From NCBI RefSeq assembly GCF_017313105.1, contig NZ_JAFLND010000001.1, positions 868,001 to 932,000 of the forward strand: a DNA stretch of 64,000 nucleotides, given 5' to 3'. Every line of letters begins with the position of its first letter. Position 1 is the stretch's first letter. The translations under genes were made by a program, and so were the position numbers. Shown piece after piece: positions 24,481 to 39,275 of the stretch. The stretch is from [Muricauda] lutisoli (nom. illeg.) (GTDB lineage: Bacteria; Bacteroidota; Bacteroidia; Flavobacteriales; Flavobacteriaceae). The notes beneath the pieces were generated by a model. That model ran no database searches, had not been told where the DNA came from, and was given only the letters and a program-made list of their open reading frames with translations.

Positions 24481-26313
24481 TTAATTAAAGAAACCTTGTT
24501 CTGGAGCACCATATGTTCCTATCAGACTTGACCTGTCCAAAAGCCTATTGAATTCCTCACAACTGGTTTCAGGTACAATTGCACAGTTATGACAAGCTGC
24601 TCCGTTCAATGAATCGGGACCTTGACCGTTCGAAATTCCAACATCCATACAAACAGGATCGGCTGAACACCACCTAGCATCTTCTATAATTTCCTTCAGT
24701 AAGTCATAGAAATTGGACTCTCTTCCTTGTCTAACCAATCCTCCCATAGAACCTTCCGAATCACCTGATGATGTATATATTAATACTCCGTTCATTCGGG
24801 TCTGATCATTACTTGAAAAATAGATTCTCTCTCTTAACGATGAAGAACCATAACCACAATTGAAACAAAGTCTATTAATTAACAAATGAGCAAAAGTATG
24901 AATCATTACAAATGCCGGAGATAAATCACGTTCCTCATATCCATCCCAACGACGTAGTCTTTCCCGATGATATCTCGTGATAAGTTCATTGATTCCATTA
25001 GGTGCTCTTTTTAACCATTCATCAATTTTGTCATCTCTGAATTTGATAAATATTCCTTCTCCATAAACAACATGGGCAGGTAACCAATTGACATCATTTC
25101 TACTTAAATCTGTCATCTTATCAAAGATACTTCGCCCGTCTTCTGCGTTTATCCTTGAAAATCCAGCAAAAACTCGTGTCTCTCTGAGCTTTTCAATCAA
25201 AACTATGTGCTCGAAAAATTGTGACAGGAATTCACCCATTTTTGTATCTGAAAACTGACTAACTACAGCTTTGAAATCAGAGTTTTCCGAATCTCGTCCA
25301 GAATTTAAATAATCATATTCTTGAGTTCTTATGTCAAGCTCTGAAGTGACTTCTAATACATCCTCATCCGCACTAGCCAAATATTCTGTTACATGGCGTA
25401 CTAAGTCTTCCAAAGCAATTATTCCTGAATTGACTTCTGGTTGGTTTTGAAGAAATATCCTCAATGACCTCAAATCGTTATCCACTTCCGATAACTGCTT
25501 AATTAAAGCTTCACTTCTTTCAATGATTCTAACTATTACCTCTGGTGTTGTTACTCCTGTATTTGGCAGATATAGGGCGGACCTAATGGCTGCATAATGT
25601 ACATTGGAACCGCCTCTAATCAACACTCTTAAAGGATTCTCGCAATTCTGAGGTTGGGAAATACCCACGGGCCCAAGCCAAGGTCTATGACCTTCGCAAG
25701 TCGTTATGCTATCTAAAGCTCCTACATTCATTATTCCTCCAAGAGTCCTGCGCTCTCCACAAGAACATTCAATTGCTATACTTGATAAATCTCCTGAACC
25801 TTTTCCTGCTTTAAAACTGAGTATGTGATTTCCTTCCGGACGCTCTCCTTGGTGCACCCACTCCATGAAAGGAACATCTTGAATATGTCCTTGAGGACAA
25901 ACCGCCACGAACCTTACAGGTATTAATCTACCTTTACATTTATCTTCCGAACACCTTGGATTCTCTTGTCTAGTTAATTCAATTTTTCTCATGACATCAC
26001 ATCGTATACAATAATGCCACTGGGGAAATCTAACAGCTGGAATGGTCAATTTGGAATTAACTCTATTGCTATCCCTAAATGGAAAAGGTTTCTTGAAATG
26101 ATCCACATTCAATAGCCTTTCTAACCTAGGTTCATGAATTTCAAATTCAGTAATGTCAACATACTCCGGTCCAACATTTTGGATTCTTTGATCTAAAACA
26201 CCCTCCCATGAATCTAACCCACAAATCATGAGGGTCTCATCATGAGGGAAATTCACTAATTGACCTATACCAAAAGGAGATAGTAATTGACCTAACCTAA
26301 TATTTCTATTCAT
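24481..26313 (-). CDS. drmB: DISARM protein DrmB (DUF1998 domain)
   Basis: 610 residues. The N-terminus (LGQLLSPFGIGQLVNFP) matches the start seen in DrmB-like proteins. Cysteine/His clusters suggest zinc binding: CIRCDVMRK and CSEDKCKG (about 103-125), CPQGHIQ, CSCGERR and CEGHRP. The C-terminal DUF1998 region has CFNCGYGSSSLRERIYF, YTSSGDSEGSMGGLVRQG and ACHNCAIVPETSCEEFN, as in the MrfB-type partners of helicases. DrmB forms a complex with the DrmA helicase in DISARM anti-phage defence. It is the last of five genes; its ATG is 1 base after the drmA stop. Confidence 0.85.
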   Translation of the reverse strand: MNRNIRLGQLLSPFGIGQLVNFPHDETLMICGLDSWEGVLDQRIQNVGPEYVDITEFEIHEPRLERLLNVDHFKKPFPFRDSNRVNSKLTIPAVRFPQWHYCIRCDVMRKIELTRQENPRCSEDKCKGRLIPVRFVAVCPQGHIQDVPFMEWVHQGERPEGNHILSFKAGKGSGDLSSIAIECSCGERRTLGGIMNVGALDSITTCEGHRPWLGPVGISQPQNCENPLRVLIRGGSNVHYAAIRSALYLPNTGVTTPEVIVRIIERSEALIKQLSEVDNDLRSLRIFLQNQPEVNSGIIALEDLVRHVTEYLASADEDVLEVTSELDIRTQEYDYLNSGRDSENSDFKAVVSQFSDTKMGEFLSQFFEHIVLIEKLRETRVFAGFSRINAEDGRSIFDKMTDLSRNDVNWLPAHVVYGEGIFIKFRDDKIDEWLKRAPNGINELITRYHRERLRRWDGYEERDLSPAFVMIHTFAHLLINRLCFNCGYGSSSLRERIYFSSNDQTRMNGVLIYTSSGDSEGSMGGLVRQGRESNFYDLLKEIIEDARWCSADPVCMDVGISNGQGPDSLNGAACHNCAIVPETSCEEFNRLLDRSSLIGTYGAPEQGFFN

Positions 26314-26314
26314 C

Positions 26315-29300
26315 CTAATTATTATTTAGTATTCCAACCTTACCTTCCTCATCAACTCCTCTCATAGAAGTCTGAGTCGGTAATGATAATCCACCCGATC
26401 TTATTTCTTCCGTCACTTCACTTCCTTGCGTATACATCAAAGGAATTCTACCTTGATTAAGCATGCCAGTGTTTCTAGCATCTCCATAATATTGGAACCC
26501 ACTCTTCCAGAATTCTACTCTTCTTTCAAAGAGATTCATAGTATTCTGAAGTTCGGACGGATCAATAAGTGAACACCTATCATGAATCAAATCACGAATC
26601 CATGAGACCAATTCTTCAAATTCATTTTCATTGTTGCTAATATCTGGATTCTCTGTTAAACTAGAATCTGAAAAATTTCTAACAAGTCCAATTAGCACAG
26701 CATGCAGAGCCCTTTCTCTTGCACTTATTGAAAACGGAGTGACCGATGTTGGTTCTACATATGAGTAAATCTTATTATGAAAAGACTGAAAATGTTCATA
26801 TTGAGATTTATCTCTAGGTTTAGACGGACTGTATAACATAACTACCAATCCAGGTCCTTTCTTTGTGTCTCGTCCGACCCTCGAACTTGCCTGAATATAT
26901 TCTGCAGTAGTTTTTGGTTGACCATGAATAATCATCAAACCTAACCTAGAAACATCAACACCTGTCGCAATCATATTAGTTGCAATACAAACGTCTAATG
27001 CTGAATTACGAGTACCGTTATATTTTTTTTCAAGTTCCTTTAAAGAGTTTGGGATTTGAGAACTTGGGATACGGCTTGTTAACTCTTTCAATAAGTTGAG
27101 CCTTCTCCTTTCATCAAAAGGGATTAATTTTCTATTCTGAAGCGTAGATAAATACTCTCTGATATCGGCATATACTAAAGAAGCTGCCATACCCAATTCT
27201 CTTATGGAATTAAAAAACCCTAAAAGCGTCCAATAATAATCTTTGACTTCTGGAGTATACTCTGCTTCTTGAACTGATTGTAAAATCGAAGAGTACAATC
27301 TTACGACAGAGGTTTGTCCTGATCTATACCCAGGAGCCAAAATACCAATGTACTTTCTTCCTGGCACCCCCTTCGAAGGCTCCATTTCTTTAGAAAACCA
27401 AGTATTTCCAAAAGATATTCCTTGAGGTGGAAAAATATTAATATTTTCACTCGAATAAAGTGCTTTCACTTGTTCTGCTGCTCTACTTATAGTTGCAGAA
27501 GAAGCAACTATTTTGGCAGTGACGTAATTGTCTCTTGAGTAAAATGGTGAAGACGATCTATAGTAGTTATTACAAAGAGTTTGAATTAGCGTTTCATACA
27601 AACCAACCATAGTACCAAGAGGTCCTGAAATTAGATGCAGCTCATCTTGTATAATAAGTTCAGGTGGGGTAATTCTAACCTTATCGTTCTTCTCTCTAAA
27701 ACCAAATATCGATGCGGATTCCGGCTTCCACGGAACCATGGCAAATTTATCTACAGTTCCTAGAACCAAAGTTGGACATATTTGAAATATATCTTCATCT
27801 ACCACATATAAAGGAAGTTCTTCATTATGAAACTCACATCTGTCATTTTCACAGGAGAAGTATACTCTTGAATTGTTAGATTTACCATCAGATTTTCTAA
27901 TTCCAACCAGTTTTTTCTGCCGAGAAGGTTTTTCCAACTGTCCGATACCAGATCCACAACAAGGACATTTCATAACGATGAAATTGTACTCGGCTGTTCT
28001 AAAATTATCTCCTGTTAAATCTTCATATAATTTAGAGGCATCTTTTCTTGTATTTGGGGTTGAGGCACTTCCTACCCATAATCCAATTGATATTGGTTCA
28101 ATTCCTAATTCAGGATTCTTTCTTCGAATCAATTCACTTGCGCATATCAGTGATGATGCTCTTTCGTATTGTTGAGTCGTCAAAAGTCTAAGAGTATACC
28201 TCATGAGTATAGAAGTTCCTCCGTGATTTTTTATGTCTATAAAGTCTCTCCCTCTAATTCTTCTTGCGAAAATTGTAAACCCAGCTAGGCCCAGATAAGC
28301 TTCTGTTTTACCTCCTCCAGTGGGAAACCAAATTAAATCAACGATATTTCTAGCATCGGATTCAGGTTCCCAAATTGATTTAATATTCATCAATACAAAA
28401 GCAATTTGAAAAGGCCTCCAATTACCGCTATAAGGTTGATCATGAAACTCACTCAATGTCACAAAATCTTGAGAACCATCTGGCAGTGCTTCTAACGAAT
28501 ACTCAGAGTCTCTCCAAGTCCCACTTTGAATCCATTCTCTCCTTGGTGTTTTAGATCTTTGTTGTTGCCATATCATGGCTCTATTCATCCATCGAAAACA
28601 CTTGACTATTTCACTTCCCTCACCAGCTTCCACCAACATATTCACCCCTTCTTCAATTCTTGATAGGTTGTCTCTACATTTTTCAATATTTCTCATAGCT
28701 GCATCAACAAATCTACCATCAAGTTCTTGCGCGGAGTCTTGAAGATTGCTTATCCATGTTCCATAGCTAGACACCAAATTTTGAAGACTCCTTATGGCGG
28801 ATTCCCAATCTCCCATATCAGAAAGTTCAAACATGCTCAAATTCACAAAGTGGGTAGGAGAGACTTGTGGCAATTCGTAAACTGGGATTACAGTTGAATA
28901 AAGGTTGTTCACCGAAGAATCTTGTTCATCCCATTGAACTGAGCATCCATGACCAATTCCATAAGTCTTTTTGTCTCGATATAATAATCTTAACTCCTCT
29001 TCCTCAGGCGTATCATTCGCTGATTGTCTTTCAACATATGGCAATATTGATTTACCAGAATCATCTTTTAACATTAATTCATTCTGAAATAAAATTGCTC
29101 TATCATCTTCTTGAAAATCCCCTGTAGCTCTAATATTATTTATAATCGTAAAAGTGAATATCCGCTCACCTTTATCGATATCTTCTTGTCTTGACCTATC
29201 AAACACTTCTAATCTCAACCATCCTTGGCACTGATCCCATGGAGTATTTACCAAGGTCTGTTCAAATACTCTTCCTCGTCTGTTCCCAATTTCTGAAATG

Positions 29301-29833
29301 TTCAACCGAACTGGTTTTATTTCTAACACCCTTCGTCTCCAATTCCTTCTTAATACAACTTCCTGAGTTGCCATATTGAGTTTATCATCATATCCCGGTG
29401 GATCAGGGACAACTCTTTTTTCAGGCACCTCGTCATCCGACCTTTCATACCAAGCAGAATTGATATTTACAACAACTTCGTTTTCGCTGTATTTTAATTT
29501 ACATGTGAAACCAAGTGCCGATGGAAGAAATTCATTTGCAAGTCCAATGGATTGATCGGAGTCCGGCTCATCAGAAAGTCTAGCCTTAGTATTGTGTATA
29601 TCAGCTTCTACCTCATCATCGTTTTCTTCCTCTTCAGCTTCATTATTTTCATCAACTTCTGCTAATTCAGTTGATTGTGGGTATAACATTCCTGCACCAT
29701 ACCTCAACTTTGGAGAGCCGTGAACTCTTTCCAAAAGAACTTCTTCTCCAGTATCTGGATCTATATATGCAGGGTGAGGGTCTGGTCCACACACCTCTTT
29801 TTTAATATCCTCAATTATTTGATCTCTTATCAT
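26315..29833 (-). CDS. drmA: DISARM helicase DrmA
   Basis: 1172 residues, usual for DrmA. An N-terminal region (1-490) with an acidic patch (about 60-80) precedes a superfamily 2 helicase core. Walker A is FPTGGGKTEAYLGL (near 505), the DExH box is IIQDELHLISGPLG (near 728), and motif VI is YIQASSRVGRD (near 985), preceded by CIATNMIATGVDVSRLG. A zinc-like insertion (CPCCGSG...CENDRCEF) lies between the first two. DrmA with DrmB binds DNA ends and is required in both DISARM classes. Its start overlaps the NERD-helicase stop (ATGA). Confidence 0.87.
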   Translation of the reverse strand: MIRDQIIEDIKKEVCGPDPHPAYIDPDTGEEVLLERVHGSPKLRYGAGMLYPQSTELAEVDENNEAEEEENDDEVEADIHNTKARLSDEPDSDQSIGLANEFLPSALGFTCKLKYSENEVVVNINSAWYERSDDEVPEKRVVPDPPGYDDKLNMATQEVVLRRNWRRRVLEIKPVRLNISEIGNRRGRVFEQTLVNTPWDQCQGWLRLEVFDRSRQEDIDKGERIFTFTIINNIRATGDFQEDDRAILFQNELMLKDDSGKSILPYVERQSANDTPEEEELRLLYRDKKTYGIGHGCSVQWDEQDSSVNNLYSTVIPVYELPQVSPTHFVNLSMFELSDMGDWESAIRSLQNLVSSYGTWISNLQDSAQELDGRFVDAAMRNIEKCRDNLSRIEEGVNMLVEAGEGSEIVKCFRWMNRAMIWQQQRSKTPRREWIQSGTWRDSEYSLEALPDGSQDFVTLSEFHDQPYSGNWRPFQIAFVLMNIKSIWEPESDARNIVDLIWFPTGGGKTEAYLGLAGFTIFARRIRGRDFIDIKNHGGTSILMRYTLRLLTTQQYERASSLICASELIRRKNPELGIEPISIGLWVGSASTPNTRKDASKLYEDLTGDNFRTAEYNFIVMKCPCCGSGIGQLEKPSRQKKLVGIRKSDGKSNNSRVYFSCENDRCEFHNEELPLYVVDEDIFQICPTLVLGTVDKFAMVPWKPESASIFGFREKNDKVRITPPELIIQDELHLISGPLGTMVGLYETLIQTLCNNYYRSSSPFYSRDNYVTAKIVASSATISRAAEQVKALYSSENINIFPPQGISFGNTWFSKEMEPSKGVPGRKYIGILAPGYRSGQTSVVRLYSSILQSVQEAEYTPEVKDYYWTLLGFFNSIRELGMAASLVYADIREYLSTLQNRKLIPFDERRRLNLLKELTSRIPSSQIPNSLKELEKKYNGTRNSALDVCIATNMIATGVDVSRLGLMIIHGQPKTTAEYIQASSRVGRDTKKGPGLVVMLYSPSKPRDKSQYEHFQSFHNKIYSYVEPTSVTPFSISARERALHAVLIGLVRNFSDSSLTENPDISNNENEFEELVSWIRDLIHDRCSLIDPSELQNTMNLFERRVEFWKSGFQYYGDARNTGMLNQGRIPLMYTQGSEVTEEIRSGGLSLPTQTSMRGVDEEGKVGILNNN

Positions 29834-31560
29834 GACATCATTTCTTTAAATCTCTTATCCAATAATTTGTTGTAGGACTCCTCCACATCTTTATCAAAAA
29901 CAACATATAGCTTTAATCTCGCACGACTAATTCCAATGTAAAGTAGGCTAGTCGAATAATCAGTATCCAATTCATCAAACTCAGCTAGAACAATAAATGA
30001 ATTTTCGAGTCCTTTATAGGAATGTACGGTTGTATGCAATAAACCTTGTTCTTTCCATTTTAATGCTTTGTCTGAAACAAGTACTTGAGAGTTATCTATC
30101 CTCTTTTTGGAAAGAACGGTGATTTTGTAGAGGGGTATCCCTTTAGAAATAAGGGAGGATATTATTTCGTCCACCTTTTCTTCAACTTTGTTTTTTCTTG
30201 GAAAGAAATGTTCAACTCGCTCACCAGTCATCATCCCTTCTGGACTAATCTGCAATTCACAACCAGTAGAATTATGATTGAAGAGAACTATATTCTTAGT
30301 GTTTCTGCAATTGACTTTAAGTGGTGGTATCTTCGTAAATGCTGATTTACTTGCTACCTGATCAATTATTTCAGCTGGATTAGACCGATATATCAGTTGA
30401 TTGCAAAAGTCCCCGAACATAACCCAATTACCATTAGAGATACCTCCTTTTATCATTGCGTCAAAAACTTCAACATAAAGTTCACTCATTAAGTCTTGTG
30501 ACTCATCTATAATGATTAAATCAAACTTATCATTCTCATCTACTTCCTCAAGTTCTATAAGGCACTGAAAAGGTAAATCAACTTCAAAAAACTGGCTAAC
30601 ATCTATACTAGGTGGGGTCATTTTACATATGGACATCATGTAACCGTGAAAACTTCCTATTTCCGATTTCGATTGTGTTATATCAAGGGTTGAAGTGATA
30701 TCCTTATAAAGCTTATTTCCAAGATTTTTATTGTAGCAGAAAAAACCAACCTTCTTGCCATCTTTATGATTTCGCATGAAGATTTCTGTTGCCATCAAGG
30801 TCTTACCTGTTCCAGCTCCTCCTTGAATTAGACAACGATTATTAAATTCCAAAATTGAAAGAATACTAAATTGCTCTTCTGTAAAATGATTAATTACTTT
30901 CTCCTCATCTAATATGGAGTTTATATTTGAGTAATCATAAGAAAAGTCACCTCGGAGTAATTTGTATATCAATTCACAGTCCTTTTTGGAAGGCCTAGAC
31001 ATTGTTGGATCATACCATGATTTTCTTTCAACTTTTTTATGGAATCCTTTAGATAAAGCATGGATAAAATGACTTGATGGAGCTCGAAAACCTGTTCTTG
31101 TAAATATTTGCCAAGTTTCAGCTTCAGGGCCATAATCATTAAATTCATTTAAGCTTGTAAACATAACTCCACAGCCAAATAGAAAATCGCCTATTCTTTC
31201 CTTTAGCCTTGGAACATCCTTTGCAAGTTCCTTTAGATAATTTCTTAATGAATGCATGGTGTCATTGACCTGTCTGAAAGGCCCAATCGTCGAAGTTGTT
31301 ATTTTTCCATGCCGGTTCTCAAATTTCCAAGTACCGGCATTTCTACTCACCTTTCCATGTTTTACCTCAAGTGCAAATATTCCTAGCCCTGGCGCAAGAA
31401 CCAAAAAATCTAATTCTCCAGAAATTCTTGTCAGGTGCTTACTAACGAAAAGGGAATGAAGAATTATGAAATCTTTAGCATTAATATCATTTTTGAAATG
31501 ATTGAAAACTAGCTTCTCTCCTCGAGAGTTATCATTGGTTATTTTATTTGGAACTAACAT
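29830..31560 (-). CDS. NERD nuclease domain-UvrD-like helicase fusion in the DISARM-like operon
   Basis: 576 residues. Residues about 10-130 form a NERD domain; GELDFLVLAPGLGIFALEVKHG supplies the Asp and E-V-K signature of the PD-(D/E)XK nuclease superfamily (E-V-K near residue 65). A superfamily 1 ATPase follows: Walker A GGAGTGKTLMA (near 248), Walker B IIIDESQDL (near 352), HSYKGLEN, and LLYIGISRARLKLYV at the end. It is coupled to both neighbours: its ATG overlaps the DrmE-like stop (TAATG) and its stop overlaps drmA's start (ATGA). It occupies a place where canonical class 2 DISARM has no such gene, and may stand in for the missing DrmC nuclease. Confidence 0.85.
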   Translation of the reverse strand: MLVPNKITNDNSRGEKLVFNHFKNDINAKDFIILHSLFVSKHLTRISGELDFLVLAPGLGIFALEVKHGKVSRNAGTWKFENRHGKITTSTIGPFRQVNDTMHSLRNYLKELAKDVPRLKERIGDFLFGCGVMFTSLNEFNDYGPEAETWQIFTRTGFRAPSSHFIHALSKGFHKKVERKSWYDPTMSRPSKKDCELIYKLLRGDFSYDYSNINSILDEEKVINHFTEEQFSILSILEFNNRCLIQGGAGTGKTLMATEIFMRNHKDGKKVGFFCYNKNLGNKLYKDITSTLDITQSKSEIGSFHGYMMSICKMTPPSIDVSQFFEVDLPFQCLIELEEVDENDKFDLIIIDESQDLMSELYVEVFDAMIKGGISNGNWVMFGDFCNQLIYRSNPAEIIDQVASKSAFTKIPPLKVNCRNTKNIVLFNHNSTGCELQISPEGMMTGERVEHFFPRKNKVEEKVDEIISSLISKGIPLYKITVLSKKRIDNSQVLVSDKALKWKEQGLLHTTVHSYKGLENSFIVLAEFDELDTDYSTSLLYIGISRARLKLYVVFDKDVEESYNKLLDKRFKEMMS

Positions 31561-34328
31561 TAGTCGTATATAAATTTCATTGTGGAATGATATTCAACTG
31601 ATAAATCATTCCTTTTCTCAATTCCTACTATTTCGGCTTTCCTACCTGCTACATTAATTCCATTAATCGCCACTGTAAATTCATTCTCTAACTCAGAATA
31701 TGAGTCAGTCATTAGCTTTGATAGTCTTTCCTTTACTGTTCGGTTAAGTTTGTTCTTCGCCTTTATTATTATTCTTCTTGATCTTACTATCTCATCAACC
31801 AATTGAGGAATATCTTCTTGGTTATAATGGATTGAAAGAATCATTCTCAGGTTCTCTTCATTTGGAGACAACAGGCTGTCATCATGTAACCATCTAGCAA
31901 CATTGTAAATTTCAGGACTTCCACCTATGTCGAAATCATCATTTGCCTGAGATAATGAATCCATCAAACGATGAATATCTTGGTATTTTTCAAATTCAGA
32001 GATTAGAACATTTCTCCATACATCCAATTTATCTAAGTCATTTCTTATTGCTCCAGAATCTTCCAAATAATCACTTATAGAACGTCTAGAAACATTTAAA
32101 TCTACTGCAATATCACCTATTGAAATATTATCTACGAGTGCATATTCAGACTTCATTTCATGTGTCTGAGACTCCCTGAGCAATAGGATTCTTCTTTTAT
32201 GTGGCATAAATAAGTAACCACCATCATTAAAATGAAGAACATCACATTTCAAGATGTAAGCTCCATCTGATTCCCCGTTTGAATTTGAAGTTTTAAATTC
32301 TGAATACCTAATATCGTTCAATAACTTTTCAAAATTGTCAAATTCAATCATTTCTTCATCATTCCCTTGAATGATTTCTTTATCTGAAGAGAAAATATCA
32401 GCGATTAAGTCATCTACTTCTTCTTGGGAGGTAATCAAATAAGACTCTAACCCCTCTACTGTGTTTGGAAGTGATTCCACGAAATAACCAGCTTTAAACT
32501 TGCTTATCAGGAAATTCTTGGTTACTGAGGACTCGCATTCATTTAAATAGAGTTTCAATTTTGGAATTATGAAATTAAAACAACTTCTAGCTAAGAACTT
32601 GAAATAATAATCTCTATACGGGTACCCAAAGAAAGTAATTGACTCTTCTGATTCATCAATGTCATTATAATGCCTAACTAATGATTCATCTCGCTCTTCG
32701 GGTATGGTACATTTATGATCATTAATTAAAATGTTCTGAAAGAAATAAGAATCATCAACTTCTTTATGTGGTTTAGGCTCTTTACCCGTTAGAACATATT
32801 TTTTGAAGCCTGAAAGTCCCTCGAAAATCCTTTCTTTTATAGCCTCATTTAAACCTGCAGAAGATTCCTTAAAAATCTTTTCAAATGCATTAAGAGATTC
32901 AATGATTTCTGTAGTATCAATTCTTTGACTGGAGTTTTTAACAACATAAAGTATTGGACGAAGAATTTGATAGTATGCCTTTTGAAGTAGCTCAAAATCA
33001 TTAAGCTGTCCAAGTAGATCTTTTGATTCGAATATTTGATAAATCGAGTCAAACTCTCCACTCTCAAACTCAATAATTTTAACCTCTTGATTTATTGAAT
33101 TCACACACAAATTGTTTAAATGGAAGTCAATAAACCTTTCCCTGTTATCCCTTTGAAGGTTTAATAAATCTAATTTTATCTTGTCCCAATTAAATCTAAA
33201 ACATTCTCGATAAGTCTCTGAATTGAATAGGTTCTTGTATAAATCGAATTCTTTAAATTCTGTTATTACACGATCTGAGATAATTATAACTGGAATTTTA
33301 TTTGTTAAAATCGTTCCAATGGTTTCAGGGTATTCATTGAGTTGTTGTATCTCGTTTATGATGACTGCATCAACGCTTTCTAAAATGTTTTCTTCGATAC
33401 CAGGATAATGGCTAAACAACCCTTTCAGCTTATTTCCAAACACAAGCAAGTCGTCTTCTTCAGATAAATCATTAATCAATTTAGTTAAGGCTTCTACGAA
33501 TACTCTAGTCCTTAATTCAGTCTCTGCAATAGTGAGCAAATATTCAATATCTTTTCTGAGGTCACTATCATCTGATTGAATACTATTCAATATTGAAGTC
33601 ATCGCAGAGGTAAAAAAGCTCTCGTTTGTACTTACTGATTTATCCTGTATTCCATCAAAGTAGGATAGATCAGGTGAAATTATAAGATTCTTGTCTAACA
33701 GGACTGTATCCGCTAAACTTTCATCATATAGCTCAGTGTCTTTAAGAGTTCTTCTAAATGAACCTACCTTTCCACGTCCCGAAATCAAAATAATCTTGGA
33801 TTCTAAAGCATCCAAATTAGGGTTCAAATGCAGATTCAAAATCTGAGTTATTGCTTTTCTTTGCCTTAAAAAGCTTCTTTTTTTCTTAACGAAATGGGCG
33901 AACTTGTTAACCATGTTTTTTCGAGCACTATTGACGAATTGAGCATTCTGAATATCAATATATGCACTAGCACCATCTGAAAATGAAATAACCAATTCAT
34001 CATTAGGATTAATCCCTTTAAAGATTGCCGTGGAAGAAAAAATATCAATTTTATCTCCCGCCTTTAAGCCTAGTTTTTTTATTCTATTATCACTTTTAGA
34101 AACACAATCATAGAAGAACTTATTAATCAATAATAGGCTTGACAACCACAGTGCAGCGTTATGTTTAGAAGGAAAGGTAAGAATCAAAGGACTAGAAGTA
34201 TCTGAATTCTTTACTGCCTCAAAGTAGTCTAATGAAATTGAAGTTGAAAGTTGAACAACTGGACTGAACTCGTATTTACCTAATTTAAGGTGATACCTTC
34301 GTATCGAGTTATTTAGAAAATCTTTCAT
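31560..34328 (-). CDS. drmE: DrmE-like large protein of class 2 DISARM
   Basis: 922 residues. The call rests on size, operon position between a cytosine methylase and drmA/drmB, and general character; I see no catalytic motif. Features are a first third with mixed alpha/beta segments (LILTFPSKHNAALWLSSLLL, KIILISGRGKVGSFRRT), a central helical region, and a helix-turn-helix-like stretch IGDIAVDLNVSRRSISDYL near residue 740. DrmE is found only in class 2 DISARM and its function is unknown. ATGA overlap with the methylase upstream and TAATG overlap with the NERD-helicase downstream show tight coupling. It could be an unrelated large accessory protein. Confidence 0.6.
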   Translation of the reverse strand: MKDFLNNSIRRYHLKLGKYEFSPVVQLSTSISLDYFEAVKNSDTSSPLILTFPSKHNAALWLSSLLLINKFFYDCVSKSDNRIKKLGLKAGDKIDIFSSTAIFKGINPNDELVISFSDGASAYIDIQNAQFVNSARKNMVNKFAHFVKKKRSFLRQRKAITQILNLHLNPNLDALESKIILISGRGKVGSFRRTLKDTELYDESLADTVLLDKNLIISPDLSYFDGIQDKSVSTNESFFTSAMTSILNSIQSDDSDLRKDIEYLLTIAETELRTRVFVEALTKLINDLSEEDDLLVFGNKLKGLFSHYPGIEENILESVDAVIINEIQQLNEYPETIGTILTNKIPVIIISDRVITEFKEFDLYKNLFNSETYRECFRFNWDKIKLDLLNLQRDNRERFIDFHLNNLCVNSINQEVKIIEFESGEFDSIYQIFESKDLLGQLNDFELLQKAYYQILRPILYVVKNSSQRIDTTEIIESLNAFEKIFKESSAGLNEAIKERIFEGLSGFKKYVLTGKEPKPHKEVDDSYFFQNILINDHKCTIPEERDESLVRHYNDIDESEESITFFGYPYRDYYFKFLARSCFNFIIPKLKLYLNECESSVTKNFLISKFKAGYFVESLPNTVEGLESYLITSQEEVDDLIADIFSSDKEIIQGNDEEMIEFDNFEKLLNDIRYSEFKTSNSNGESDGAYILKCDVLHFNDGGYLFMPHKRRILLLRESQTHEMKSEYALVDNISIGDIAVDLNVSRRSISDYLEDSGAIRNDLDKLDVWRNVLISEFEKYQDIHRLMDSLSQANDDFDIGGSPEIYNVARWLHDDSLLSPNEENLRMILSIHYNQEDIPQLVDEIVRSRRIIIKAKNKLNRTVKERLSKLMTDSYSELENEFTVAINGINVAGRKAEIVGIEKRNDLSVEYHSTMKFIYD

Positions 34329-35902
34329 TCAACGATACCTTTTACGATGTTAGCTATTTGGAAGGCAAGGTATGGTGGTACGGCATTTCCGACTTGATGA
34401 TATTGCGCAGTTCTTGAACCACAAAAAAGATAGTTATCTGGAAATGTTTGTATACGAGCAGCTTCACGAACAGTCAGACTTCTACATTGATCTGAATCAT
34501 AATGAATAAAGTAATGCCCATCTTTTGATATGTGAGATGTTATTGTTGTAGCTGGCTCATGGGGCAATTGGACTCTGAATCGATCCGCAAACTTACCGGT
34601 AATGGCGCTCTTGTGATCGGGCACTAATTCTTCGTTATGCTTTTTGTATTCATGCAATCTCGGAAATCGTTTGTATTTAGCCGCATACAGACTAGAAAAC
34701 ATATACCTCATAAGATCTTGAGTTAAATGTGATCTCGAGATATGATTACAAACTCCTTTAAGACGAGGGTCAAAATACCAATTGTGAAGAGGGTTTTTCT
34801 TTGAAGGGGTCTTATATTCAATATACTCAGAACCAATATTTAAGAACCTTAAATCCTTATTTTTCGATTCTTTCTTAAACCCATTCCAAGAAAGAATCAT
34901 TTCTTTGTATCTTGTTGTAAGGTCTTTCCAAGTATCAAAATCGTCATCAACTTTTTTGTAAACTCTTTTCTTTTTTCCAGAGCTTAAATAAGATTCAATA
35001 AAAGTTCTATTCAATCCACTTCGAACTTTAGGAAGATCTCCTATAATAGATTTCAAATCAATAGTAGATTTATTTTTGTTCAATACCTCTGGTTTTACTT
35101 TTATGTCTTCCCTTATGCCTAGCAAAATTACCCGATGCCTTTTTTGAGGAACACCAAACTCCTCCGATTTAATCAGGTAGTCAGAGTCTTTCTTATAACA
35201 TGGATTGCCTTTATCGTCAAAGTATTCGGGTACGGTGGATAAAGAATACACGTTATACTTTGGAGATTCAAATTCAGGAAACAGCTTAGAGGGATTGCTC
35301 AAATCTCTTTTAATCCAATTAAAGACACTTTGTCCCCCAACTTTAGCGGATAATAAACCCTTGACGTTTTCCATTACGAAAACCTTTGGATGAAACTTTG
35401 CAATTATCCTGAGATATTGGCGATATAAATAAACTCTGTAATCTTCTTTATCTATTCCTCCTACACGGCTTCTGCCGGCAAGAGAATATGCCTGACACGG
35501 AGGTCCTCCAATCAAAAGCCAGTCCTTGCTTGCTCCAATGCTATTACGGATTCTCTCATCAATAAGTGATTCCGGATATTTTTCCGACCCCAATTCTGCA
35601 TTCCAAGCTTCACTAGAAGCTGTTTCAAATTCTTTGGGGTATGTCTCATATAAGTGTTCTAATTTTTTGTCTCTTGAAGCTAAATCCTTCTCTTTTAGCA
35701 CATCATAGTATTCTTCTGGCAATTCGTTTATTGGAAACTGTCGATAGAAACTCCTTAATTGAAGCGTCTTGTGAGCATTAATGTCTTTTTCAATTGATAG
35801 CTTAATATCAAACAATCTAGATTCATTTTGAATCACAGATGAAAATCCTTCCCCTAAACCTCCTGGACCAGCGAACAAATCAATAACTGGGATTGGTTTC
35901 AT
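34325..35902 (-). CDS. drmMII: C5-cytosine DNA methyltransferase (DrmMII-type)
   Basis: 525 residues with complete catalytic machinery. SAM motif I is DLFAGPGGLGEGF near the start; the catalytic cysteine is in GGPPCQAYSLAGRSR (about residue 135); motif VI is VFVMENVKG (about 177); VPQKRHRVILLG and the C-terminal motifs IX-X (SLTVREAARIQTFPD, QVGNAVPPYLAF) follow. It methylates cytosine at C5, marking host DNA as self. It is the first gene of the five-gene leftward operon. The recognition sequence cannot be read from the target-recognition region (about 270-420). An 876-bp gene-free region lies upstream. Confidence 0.92.
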   Translation of the reverse strand: MKPIPVIDLFAGPGGLGEGFSSVIQNESRLFDIKLSIEKDINAHKTLQLRSFYRQFPINELPEEYYDVLKEKDLASRDKKLEHLYETYPKEFETASSEAWNAELGSEKYPESLIDERIRNSIGASKDWLLIGGPPCQAYSLAGRSRVGGIDKEDYRVYLYRQYLRIIAKFHPKVFVMENVKGLLSAKVGGQSVFNWIKRDLSNPSKLFPEFESPKYNVYSLSTVPEYFDDKGNPCYKKDSDYLIKSEEFGVPQKRHRVILLGIREDIKVKPEVLNKNKSTIDLKSIIGDLPKVRSGLNRTFIESYLSSGKKKRVYKKVDDDFDTWKDLTTRYKEMILSWNGFKKESKNKDLRFLNIGSEYIEYKTPSKKNPLHNWYFDPRLKGVCNHISRSHLTQDLMRYMFSSLYAAKYKRFPRLHEYKKHNEELVPDHKSAITGKFADRFRVQLPHEPATTITSHISKDGHYFIHYDSDQCRSLTVREAARIQTFPDNYLFCGSRTAQYHQVGNAVPPYLAFQIANIVKGIVE

Positions 35903-36778: not shown

Positions 36779-36979
36779 ATGAGGAATAAAATGGAAAAGC
36801 TAGAAGAGATAATCACCAAGAAAGAACTGATGGACTACTATGGTATTCACAGGGATACAATAGAAGTATGGGTAAAGAAATATAATCTACCACTGATAGA
36901 AATATCAACTCATATAAAGTATGTAAAGAAAGATGAATTTTTAAAGTGGGAAGAAAATTTGAAAAAGAATTCAAAGTGA
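36779..36979 (+). CDS. Small MerR/HTH_17-type DNA-binding protein, excisionase-like
   Basis: 66 residues, or 62 from the second ATG at 36791. The pattern IITKKELMDYYGIHRDTIEVWVKKYNLPLIEI..YVKKDEFLKWEE is a winged helix of the excisionase/HTH_17 type. Such proteins in islands act as recombination directionality factors or regulators. It stands alone in the rightward direction after the structured region. It is one of two candidate directionality factors for the large serine recombinase; the other is at 39568. Confidence 0.65.
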   Translation: MRNKMEKLEEIITKKELMDYYGIHRDTIEVWVKKYNLPLIEISTHIKYVKKDEFLKWEENLKKNSK

Positions 36980-38502: not shown

Positions 38503-38652
38503 CTAATCATCATTTTCATCTGAACCCATTGTCATATAGGTAACCCATTCGAATGGAGAATATTCTTGCTGATCCAACTTTTCGAAGAACTCTTTAGCTT
38601 TCTTCTCTTCGTAGATTTTTCTGAGTTCTTTTTTTCTCTTTTTACTTATCAT
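38503..38652 (-). CDS. Small charged protein coupled to the resolvase gene (49 aa)
   Basis: A 49-codon frame starts at an ATG that overlaps the resolvase stop as ATGA, the arrangement of translationally coupled genes. The peptide has a very basic N-terminus (MISKKRKKELRKIYEEKKAKE) and an acidic end (GSDENDD), with a hydrophobic middle (YSPFEWVTYMTM). No family recognised. The overlap with the resolvase is the main support. Confidence 0.45.
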   Translation of the reverse strand: MISKKRKKELRKIYEEKKAKEFFEKLDQQEYSPFEWVTYMTMGSDENDD

Positions 38653-39275
38653 ACTGTTTGATTTAATTGTTCGTTCATTTTTATCACCTTATAAATGGTG
38701 GAATTGGAACAGTTCCTCATTCTTGAAATCTCCCTAACCCCATAACCATTATTAAGATCCTTCAAGATCTCCTTTGATTTTGTTTTGTTCAGGAATGATT
38801 CATGGGTTTCTTTGGTTCCGATCTTCCTGCCTGAATATTTCCATGGCTCCAACTGTTTGGTTCTCTCAATCCCTTCTTTTCTCCTCATATCGATCATATC
38901 TTTTTCGAATTTGGACATCATGGAAAGAATGGAGACCATCATCTCGGAGAACCGATCTACTTCACCTTTTTCATCAAGATTCTGAATATTGGGATTACGG
39001 CAAACAACTCTAATACCCATATCAGTGAGTTCTTTCCATCTAGATAGAACATCAATGGTATTTCTGCCAAGACGGTCAATCGAGTGGATGTGCAACTCCT
39101 TCAGTTTTGATTCATCAATCAGTTCCTTAATCTGTTTGCCGCGGGGACGATCCCATAAAGGCATCGAACCTGAACACTTATCGGAGAGAATGTAATCAAA
39201 TCCAACTTCGGTATCCTTTAGCTGCCTAGCATCTGATTGTTCTTTGGTACTTACCCTACTATAAAACACCTTCAT
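38649..39275 (-). CDS. Small serine recombinase (resolvase/invertase family)
   Basis: 208 residues. The catalytic N-terminal domain starts FYSRVSTKEQ, with the nucleophile Ser9; the arginine motif is seen in IHSIDRLGRNTIDVL, and the long E helix in FSEMMVSILSMMSKFEKDMIDMRRKEG. The C-terminal Hin-type helix-turn-helix (NNGYGVREISRMRNCSNSTIYKVIK) binds DNA. It should cut and rejoin short inverted half-sites; one candidate site lies at 39287-39313 just upstream. It is unlikely to be the island integrase because it lacks the large C-terminal domains; resolution or local inversion is more likely. Confidence 0.88.
   Translation of the reverse strand: MKVFYSRVSTKEQSDARQLKDTEVGFDYILSDKCSGSMPLWDRPRGKQIKELIDESKLKELHIHSIDRLGRNTIDVLSRWKELTDMGIRVVCRNPNIQNLDEKGEVDRFSEMMVSILSMMSKFEKDMIDMRRKEGIERTKQLEPWKYSGRKIGTKETHESFLNKTKSKEILKDLNNGYGVREISRMRNCSNSTIYKVIKMNEQLNQTV

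Follow-up and report, generated by a model that had tools for sequence, protein, structure and literature searches.

The closest described relatives of the operon reported here are the DISARM defence systems. Class 2 DISARM consists of drmMII, drmE, drmA, drmB and drmC, and class 1 consists of drmD, drmMI, drmA, drmB and drmC, with DrmA and DrmB common to both. In Bravo et al. (PMC9142583), DrmC is described as dispensable and often missing, recruitment of a host phospholipase D (PLD) nuclease in trans is suggested, unmodified DNA with a 5' overhang is proposed as the activator of DISARM, and how degradation is achieved is called a mystery. DISARM-like operons with an accessory gene for an RmuC-domain protein (ShdA) are also known (PMC10270631). 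Here we describe a five-gene operon on the minus strand, at positions 24481-35902 of a 64,000-nt stretch of the [Muricauda] lutisoli genome (contig NZ_JAFLND010000001.1, positions 868,001 to 932,000; "the window"). The operon encodes a C5-cytosine methylase, a 922-aa protein, a helicase with an N-terminal NERD nuclease domain (NERD-helicase), DrmA and DrmB. The order [DrmE or split DrmE]-NERD-helicase-DrmA(-DrmB) is called E-N-A-B below, and other loci and genomes are given by our L and G numbers. We consider it probable that E-N-A-B is a distinct DISARM lineage, in which the NERD-helicase belongs to the core together with DrmAB and a DrmE-family protein.

The operon has the components by which DISARM is recognised, namely a DrmA helicase, a separate DrmB (DUF1998) gene and a DNA methylase. 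The methylase matched PF00145 (164 bits), PADLOC DrmMII (6.6e-95) and TIGR00675, DrmA matched PADLOC DrmA (3.1e-218) and the solved DrmA structure 7s9v (2e-135), and DrmB matched NF038324 (448.5 bits, cut-off 240) and PF09369. The profile searches for DrmA, DrmB, DrmMII and NERD that had been proposed in an earlier reading of this DNA (the original prediction) thus all found their families, DrmA by PADLOC and just under the NCBIfam cut-off. The coordinates of the five leftward genes and all of their junctions, described there as overlaps or a 1-nt gap, were also confirmed from the sequence (Table 1). Neither DrmD nor DrmMI was matched by any gene of the operon or by five open reading frames (ORFs) that flank it, for the methylase among the best 25 of 58 families.

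The E-N-A-B order was found in 31 distinct loci of about ten named phyla (Bacteroidota, Spirochaetota, Chloroflexota, Ignavibacteriota, Candidatus Shapirobacteria, Pseudomonadota, Acidobacteriota, Actinomycetota, Nitrospirota and Verrucomicrobiota); single host assignments may be wrong, because many of the sources are metagenome bins. The survey included a NERD-helicase alignment scan of 84,980 species, from which the best 80 of 228 relatives were kept, and DrmA searches in plasmids (14 of 85 records examined) and viral contigs (17 loci); a DrmA search of phages gave no match. Among 395 genomes of the phylum, DrmA was present in 20 and E-N-A-B in eight (G000, G143, G179, G205, G241, G319, G374 and G386), five of which belong to one genus (g60); the contig of G319 ends after DrmA. 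The methylase profile was matched in 27 of the 31 E-N-A-B loci. The recurrence of the order in 31 loci rules out chance adjacency of the five genes, and this survey of drmAB neighbours, suggested in the original prediction, shows that the NERD-helicase is not absent from homologous operons.

We analyzed the co-evolution of the operon genes by a Mantel test in 25 loci out of the 30 identified at that point. The Spearman correlation with DrmA distances was 0.88 for DrmB, 0.86 for the NERD-helicase and 0.67 for DrmE, and in 0 of 999 permutations was the value as high. The methylase served as the control for shared host descent; its correlation was 0.20 with DrmA (39 of 999 permutations as high) and 0.23 with the NERD-helicase (27 of 999), so shared host descent need not by itself produce a strong correlation. 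The spacing from the NERD-helicase to DrmA was 15 nt or less in 28/28 loci measured, and that from DrmE to the NERD-helicase was 35 nt or less in 27/28; large overlaps in these data are an artefact of taking the longest ORF. The NERD-helicase, which co-evolves with DrmA, DrmB and DrmE, had been assigned to the system from translational coupling in a single genome. That assignment is now carried by the fixed order, the tight spacing in all 28 loci and the co-evolution with DrmA, and on these sequence comparisons the NERD-helicase is very probably a core component.

A DrmA tree of 84 rows has a branch (SH-aLRT 100) that separates 29 of the 30 E-N-A-B rows, together with L164, L169 and L188 (a contig that starts at DrmA), from the other rows. 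The class 1 DrmA proteins lay apart from E-N-A-B, within a 15-row side of the tree. These 32 rows bear out the distinct DISARM subtype that had been proposed. The tree came from a quick search and is unrooted and without bootstrap, and canonical Bacillus class 2 systems are not among its rows, so E-N-A-B is set apart from class 2 by the missing match to the DISARM_DrmE equivalog, described below, and not by the tree. Left out of the first tree were L127, L154 and L160 (weak DrmA), L091 (same genome as L033), L035 (a near copy) and all chains shorter than 900 aa; of the 17 viral-contig loci, 12 were added and L191, L195, L196, L199 and L203 were left out.

The 922-aa protein is, on profile comparison, probably a divergent DrmE-family protein, because its same-slot relatives match DrmE models and hhalign ties the groups together. 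Against NF038316 DrmE_fam (cut-off 80), its relative in G143 (L004), 27-29% identical, reached 79.6 bits, and the same-slot proteins of L086 (Chloroflexota), L087 (Ignavibacteria) and L187 (viral contig) reached 395.5, 383.8 and 367 bits; the L086 and L087 proteins share only 15-17% identity with the 922-aa protein in the alignment. Some same-slot relatives also match PF24957, and Pfam DrmE_C was matched by 16 of 50 candidate proteins (E <= 0.01), which included N-terminal split proteins and some later recognised as others, e.g. DrmMI. With hhalign, the window DrmE group was linked to the L086/L087/L089/L095/L106 group at 99.7% (738 columns), and this second group in turn to the split C-terminal proteins at 99.4%. 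The DrmE slot of 20 of the 31 loci holds a smaller N-terminal protein and then a C-terminal one, and the second protein is DrmE-related; homology between the N-terminal split protein e1 and the N-terminal half of DrmE was not found by hhalign, and another run gave a maximum of 17.5%. L085 has its DrmE gene broken into two parts, and just a 112-aa remnant was recognised in G386 (L082).

Searches of its own genome with NF038316 and NF038323 did not detect the 922-aa protein, and its sole PADLOC match at E <= 10 was mad1 (0.026, 12.8 bits). It had no match among viral, plasmid and phage sequences, the L087 DrmE had none among plasmids, and a PDB sequence search with the DrmE profile gave nothing meaningful. 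The label "DrmE-like" given to it earlier therefore holds for family membership, indicated through relatives and hhalign, but not for its own sequence, which matches no DrmE profile. The designation "class 2-like" holds only in part: no tested protein scored over the cut-off of the class 2 equivalog DISARM_DrmE (NF038323; 0 of the 20 DrmA-bearing genomes), and for lack of this match a plain class 2 DISARM was rejected. The predicted model of the protein (pLDDT 78.5, pTM 0.60, 21 sequences) has weak helicase-like fold matches, and the Walker A pattern [AG]x4GK[ST] occurred in 0/11 full-length DrmE-like proteins and 0/24 N-terminal split proteins; a helicase-like fold without an ATPase motif suggests that DrmE may act as a scaffold.

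The NERD-helicase matched NERD (PF08378, 43.2 bits, cut-off 22.1), PF09848 and PF13538, its helicase part is of the UvrD/Schlafen type, and its closest PADLOC model was RTasNERD-Hel (5e-39). In the NERD fold the E/D, E-x-K and Q residues are catalytic. The predicted nuclease residues E15, D51, E65, K67 and Q97 and the motor residues K253 and E353 were identical in 30/30 E-N-A-B NERD-helicases, L187 of the 31 loci being left out of the alignment. Among 94 NERD/UvrD-labelled helicases of 500-800 aa from any context, the motor residues were kept in 94/94 and the nuclease residues in 88-93. The predicted nuclease and ATPase sites thus look intact, and the identity of the nuclease residues in 30/30 points to cutting being used in E-N-A-B. 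The predicted model (pLDDT 74.9, pTM 0.46, 7 sequences) gave fold matches to Schlafen, Upf1-type, RecD2, Dna2, UvrD and RecBCD chains. Translocation of SF1B helicases of the RecD2/Upf1/Dna2 type runs 5' to 3', a polarity that the NERD-helicase may share.

The occurrence of DrmC was also investigated, using a profile built from three annotated class 1 DrmC proteins. DrmC was found in 0/31 E-N-A-B loci (the downstream sequence is not visible in L079 and L102, and only a short piece of it in L100), and the same profile detected DrmC in class 1 loci and in some viral-contig loci. All ten DrmC-bearing DrmA rows lay on the 15-row class 1 side of the tree. Over the 84 rows, DrmC requires three changes, and a helicase of the NERD/UvrD type (N) occurs together with DrmC in one, L194. 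The N protein of L194 was rejected as a counter-example and is a UvrD/PcrA-type helicase; its helicase models start at residues 7-20 and leave no room for an N-terminal NERD domain. The association of N with absence of DrmC gave a Fisher p of 7e-6 with descent ignored; a descent-aware test has three independent pairs and no power. A 238-aa downstream gene with an HKD-like motif in L070 was rejected as DrmC, being an HNH protein. In the genome studied, a PF13091 search gave six matches in three proteins, all outside the window, and no PLD protein within it, which agrees with the earlier statement that the island carries no HKD/PLD protein. These proteins are two cardiolipin synthases and a 691-aa protein, which we take to be a polyphosphate kinase; because no others match PLD, it is unlikely that DrmC is supplied from elsewhere in this genome.

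The claim in the original prediction that the NERD nuclease replaces DrmC did not carry over in the same way. The absence of DrmC from all 31 loci and the single co-occurrence in 84 DrmA rows, in L194, speak for a NERD nuclease that took over the task of DrmC and gave a DrmC-less subtype, but the association follows clades, with only three independent pairs, L079 and L102 show no downstream sequence and L100 only a little, and DrmC is non-essential where tested (PMC9142583), so that there may be no task to replace. As a hypothesis drawn from gene content, strict replacement is doubtful. The NERD-helicase might instead be a sensor or remodelling motor that resects or exposes ends for the loading of DrmAB, which would block replication without degradation. 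Such a block is one of two options described by Bravo et al. (PMC9142583), and across contexts K253 and E353 are kept more strictly (94/94) than the nuclease residues (88-93/94), but within E-N-A-B the nuclease residues are just as invariant (30/30), and we regard this explanation as unlikely. It is very unlikely that the operon is an ordinary class 2 DISARM minus drmC into which a common defence-island NERD-helicase was inserted, either as a passenger or as an accessory system working on its own. DrmC is often missing and dispensable (PMC9142583), 35 of the 80 NERD-helicase loci had no DrmA-labelled ORF (some contigs are cut, e.g. L094), the closest PADLOC model comes from DRT (reverse-transcriptase) systems, and two clade rows have no NERD-helicase; against this, no tested protein reaches the DISARM_DrmE cut-off, the NERD-helicase lies between DrmE and DrmA at minimal spacing in 28/28 loci, and it tracks DrmA as DrmB does, while the methylase does so only weakly.

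The distinct-lineage reading, with the NERD-helicase as a core subunit, suggests a mechanism in which host DNA would be marked by the C5 methylase and DrmAB would load on phage DNA that is unmodified and has a single-stranded end, and then translocate. The NERD-helicase, held in a putative physical complex by DrmE (predicted to be an ATPase-dead helicase-like scaffold), would move along the same DNA and cut it. On its conserved residues and position, the NERD-helicase is the best candidate effector of E-N-A-B for the presumed anti-phage activity, and a NERD-helicase that evolves with DrmA offers a concrete effector candidate for DISARM, whose presumed nuclease DrmC is dispensable. We also put forward, tentatively and by analogy, that E-N-A-B could be a separate, old DISARM class working as an end-resection machine of the RecBCD/AddAB type. 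DrmAB would sense the unmodified 5' single-stranded end, DrmE would be an ATPase-dead scaffold like RecC/AddB, and the NERD-helicase would be a Dna2-like motor nuclease degrading the phage genome. If true, this would provide the nuclease so far missing from DISARM.

Several observations weigh against a distinct lineage built around the NERD-helicase. The window DrmA scored 931 bits against NF038325, 19 under the DrmAS equivalog cut-off of 950; its relative in G143 exceeds that cut-off. The 922-aa protein matched nothing in PADLOC, Pfam or NCBIfam (E <= 0.001), and because it matches none of these three libraries, the DrmE of E-N-A-B loci may go undetected with the profile sets now in use. Its fold matches are weak: the PDB list was led by UvrD/PcrA (E 6.7e-3/1e-2, TM 0.11-0.17, with 0.12/0.16 for the best match), followed by other helicases and also unrelated ATPases and G proteins, a second list was led by viral 3'-5' helicases (best E 8.4e-4), and the UvrD Tudor domain 6yhz matched a small piece of the model (59 columns, E 0.43). 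The methylase too correlates with DrmA, if weakly. The clade rows L164 (Priestia) and L169 (Nostoc) have DrmE and no NERD-helicase beside DrmA, so the NERD-helicase can be lost or act from elsewhere; a 733-aa downstream ORF of L169 took the N label (1.8e-7), and its record is a pentapeptide repeat protein. Outside the clade lie L111 (Robiginitalea), with the full E-N-A-B order, and L189 (viral contig), with DrmE_fam (444 bits), DrmA, DrmB and no NERD-helicase, which means that DrmE_fam is not confined to the E-N-A-B lineage. The frequency of N is biased, because most clade members were found with the NERD-helicase as the query; in 12 readable loci reached via DrmA or DrmE searches, the NERD-helicase was present in ten (G000, G143, G179, G205, G241, G319, G374, G386, L167 and L187) and absent from L164 and L169, G205 being counted here with its near-copy DrmA absent from the tree. 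The two cardiolipin synthases of the genome give weak matches of 53.4 and 48.8 bits to DISARM_DrmC_I, whose cut-off is 133, and Bravo et al. suggest a host PLD nuclease in trans (PMC9142583). The NERD-helicase also need not be the only nuclease, given the Vsr, NOV_C and HhH-GPD genes beside relatives. The Vsr mismatch nuclease, whose presence is expected where T:G mismatches arise from C5 methylation, was found in 15 of the 31 E-N-A-B loci (e.g. L004:6861-7280), and none was recognised in the window; further DNA-acting genes were NOV_C (L033:5097-5873), HNH_2 (L070:5052-5768, an operon that is not E-N-A-B) and a HhH-GPD glycosylase (L092:6104-7360).

Table 1. Features of the operon and its surroundings, in window coordinates
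Feature	Position	Strand	Size or residues	Remarks
drmMII-like C5-cytosine DNA methyltransferase	34325..35902	-	525 aa	GGPPCQ and MENV motifs
Junction methylase/922-aa gene	34325-34328		4-nt overlap	ATGA
Divergent DrmE-family protein	31560..34328	-	922 aa	Predicted two-lobed helicase-like fold (weak), without Walker A
DrmE_C-like C-terminal region	31689..32255	-	about residues 692-880	Start beta-rich; extent taken from hhalign range 666-879 against split DrmE proteins and model beta strands 692-745
Junction 922-aa gene/NERD-helicase	31560		1-nt overlap	TAATG
NERD-helicase	29830..31560	-	576 aa	N-terminal NERD (PD-(D/E)xK) nuclease and SF1 helicase
NERD nuclease domain	31213..31527	-	residues 12-116 (Pfam range)	E15, D51, E65-V66-K67, Q97
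SF1 helicase core	29881..30918	-	about residues 215-560	Walker A GGAGTGKT, Walker B IIDESQD
Junction NERD-helicase/drmA	29830-29833		4-nt overlap	ATGA
drmA, YprA-type SF2 helicase	26315..29833	-	1172 aa	GGGKTEAY and IIQDELH motifs
Junction drmA/drmB	26314		1-nt gap	Single base
drmB, DUF1998/MrfA zinc-binding protein	24481..26313	-	610 aa	
Helix-turn-helix ORF	36779-36979	+	66 aa	Excisionase-like by eye; divergently upstream of the operon
Serine-recombinase-like protein	38649-39275	-		NF041201 6.5e-14, below cut-off

Among the neighbours of the operon, the small helix-turn-helix ORF sits within a 1.2-kb stretch without a longer listed ORF. The serine-recombinase-like protein lies nearby, and the region may belong to a mobile island.

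The survey also brought up other DISARM-like arrangements. A second DISARM-like lineage of 25 DrmA rows (SH-aLRT 100) lies apart from E-N-A-B and shows the order A-B-N(about 395 aa)-X-N (L114, L118, L123, L124, L125, L141, L142 and others) or N-A-B-N (L039/L119, L121, L140, L162, L163 and L166). The X protein is about 530-590 aa; two sets of it are homologous (hhalign 97%), and neither of two tested matched Pfam. The viral contigs L192, L197 and L201 each have an operon that encodes a C5 methylase, a DrmD-like protein, DrmA, DrmB, DrmC and Vsr; DrmA of these contigs makes up a separate branch of the tree, and the gene before DrmA is type III restriction-like in the tested L192 and L197. The plasmid locus L165 (Lactiplantibacillus DISARM) was rejected as class 2, as no DrmE model was matched.

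Compared with known systems, E-N-A-B resembles class 2 DISARM in its C5 methylase, its probable DrmE-family protein and its separate DrmA and DrmB genes. It differs in that its DrmE falls outside the NF038323 equivalog and is often split into two genes, and in that it has a NERD-helicase between drmE and drmA and no drmC. From class 1 it differs by having no DrmD, DrmMI or DrmC in the operon and a DrmA on another side of the tree. The RmuC-bearing DISARM-like operons also have a further DNA-acting gene, but this is RmuC (ShdA) and not a NERD-helicase. TALON likewise pairs a YprA-family helicase with a NERD nuclease gene; its YprA helicase is ARMADA-like, has DUF1998 in the same chain and is fused to an RNase H domain that is inactive, and TPR-CSD and TBP genes are its neighbours (PMC12458937). 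In contrast, DrmA and DrmB of the window are separate and of the DISARM type, and identity with TALON was rejected on the separate drmB gene and on the five flanking ORFs, which matched no Pfam family. In the literature searched, to which the founding DISARM paper does not belong, TALON was the only system combining NERD with a YprA helicase (PMC12458937).

NERD domains also occur in Mokosh type I and Nhi-like systems (PMC10952713), and PADLOC RTasNERD-Hel and C3a187 have NERD and an SF1 helicase in one chain, as in the window. Dna2 and AddAB/RecBCD likewise join a nuclease and an SF1 helicase on DNA ends, and the NERD-helicase model matches Dna2, RecD2 and RecBCD chains, but this is an analogy only: the nuclease of E-N-A-B is an N-terminal NERD domain, and DrmAB has no counterpart there. 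DISARM, NERD nucleases, accessory genes and an NCBIfam model of the DrmE family that is broader than the class 2 equivalog are already known. Unlike other defence NERD-helicases, that of E-N-A-B is fixed between drmE and drmA and co-evolves with DrmA, and we judge a DISARM variant with a NERD-helicase fixed in this position to be new.

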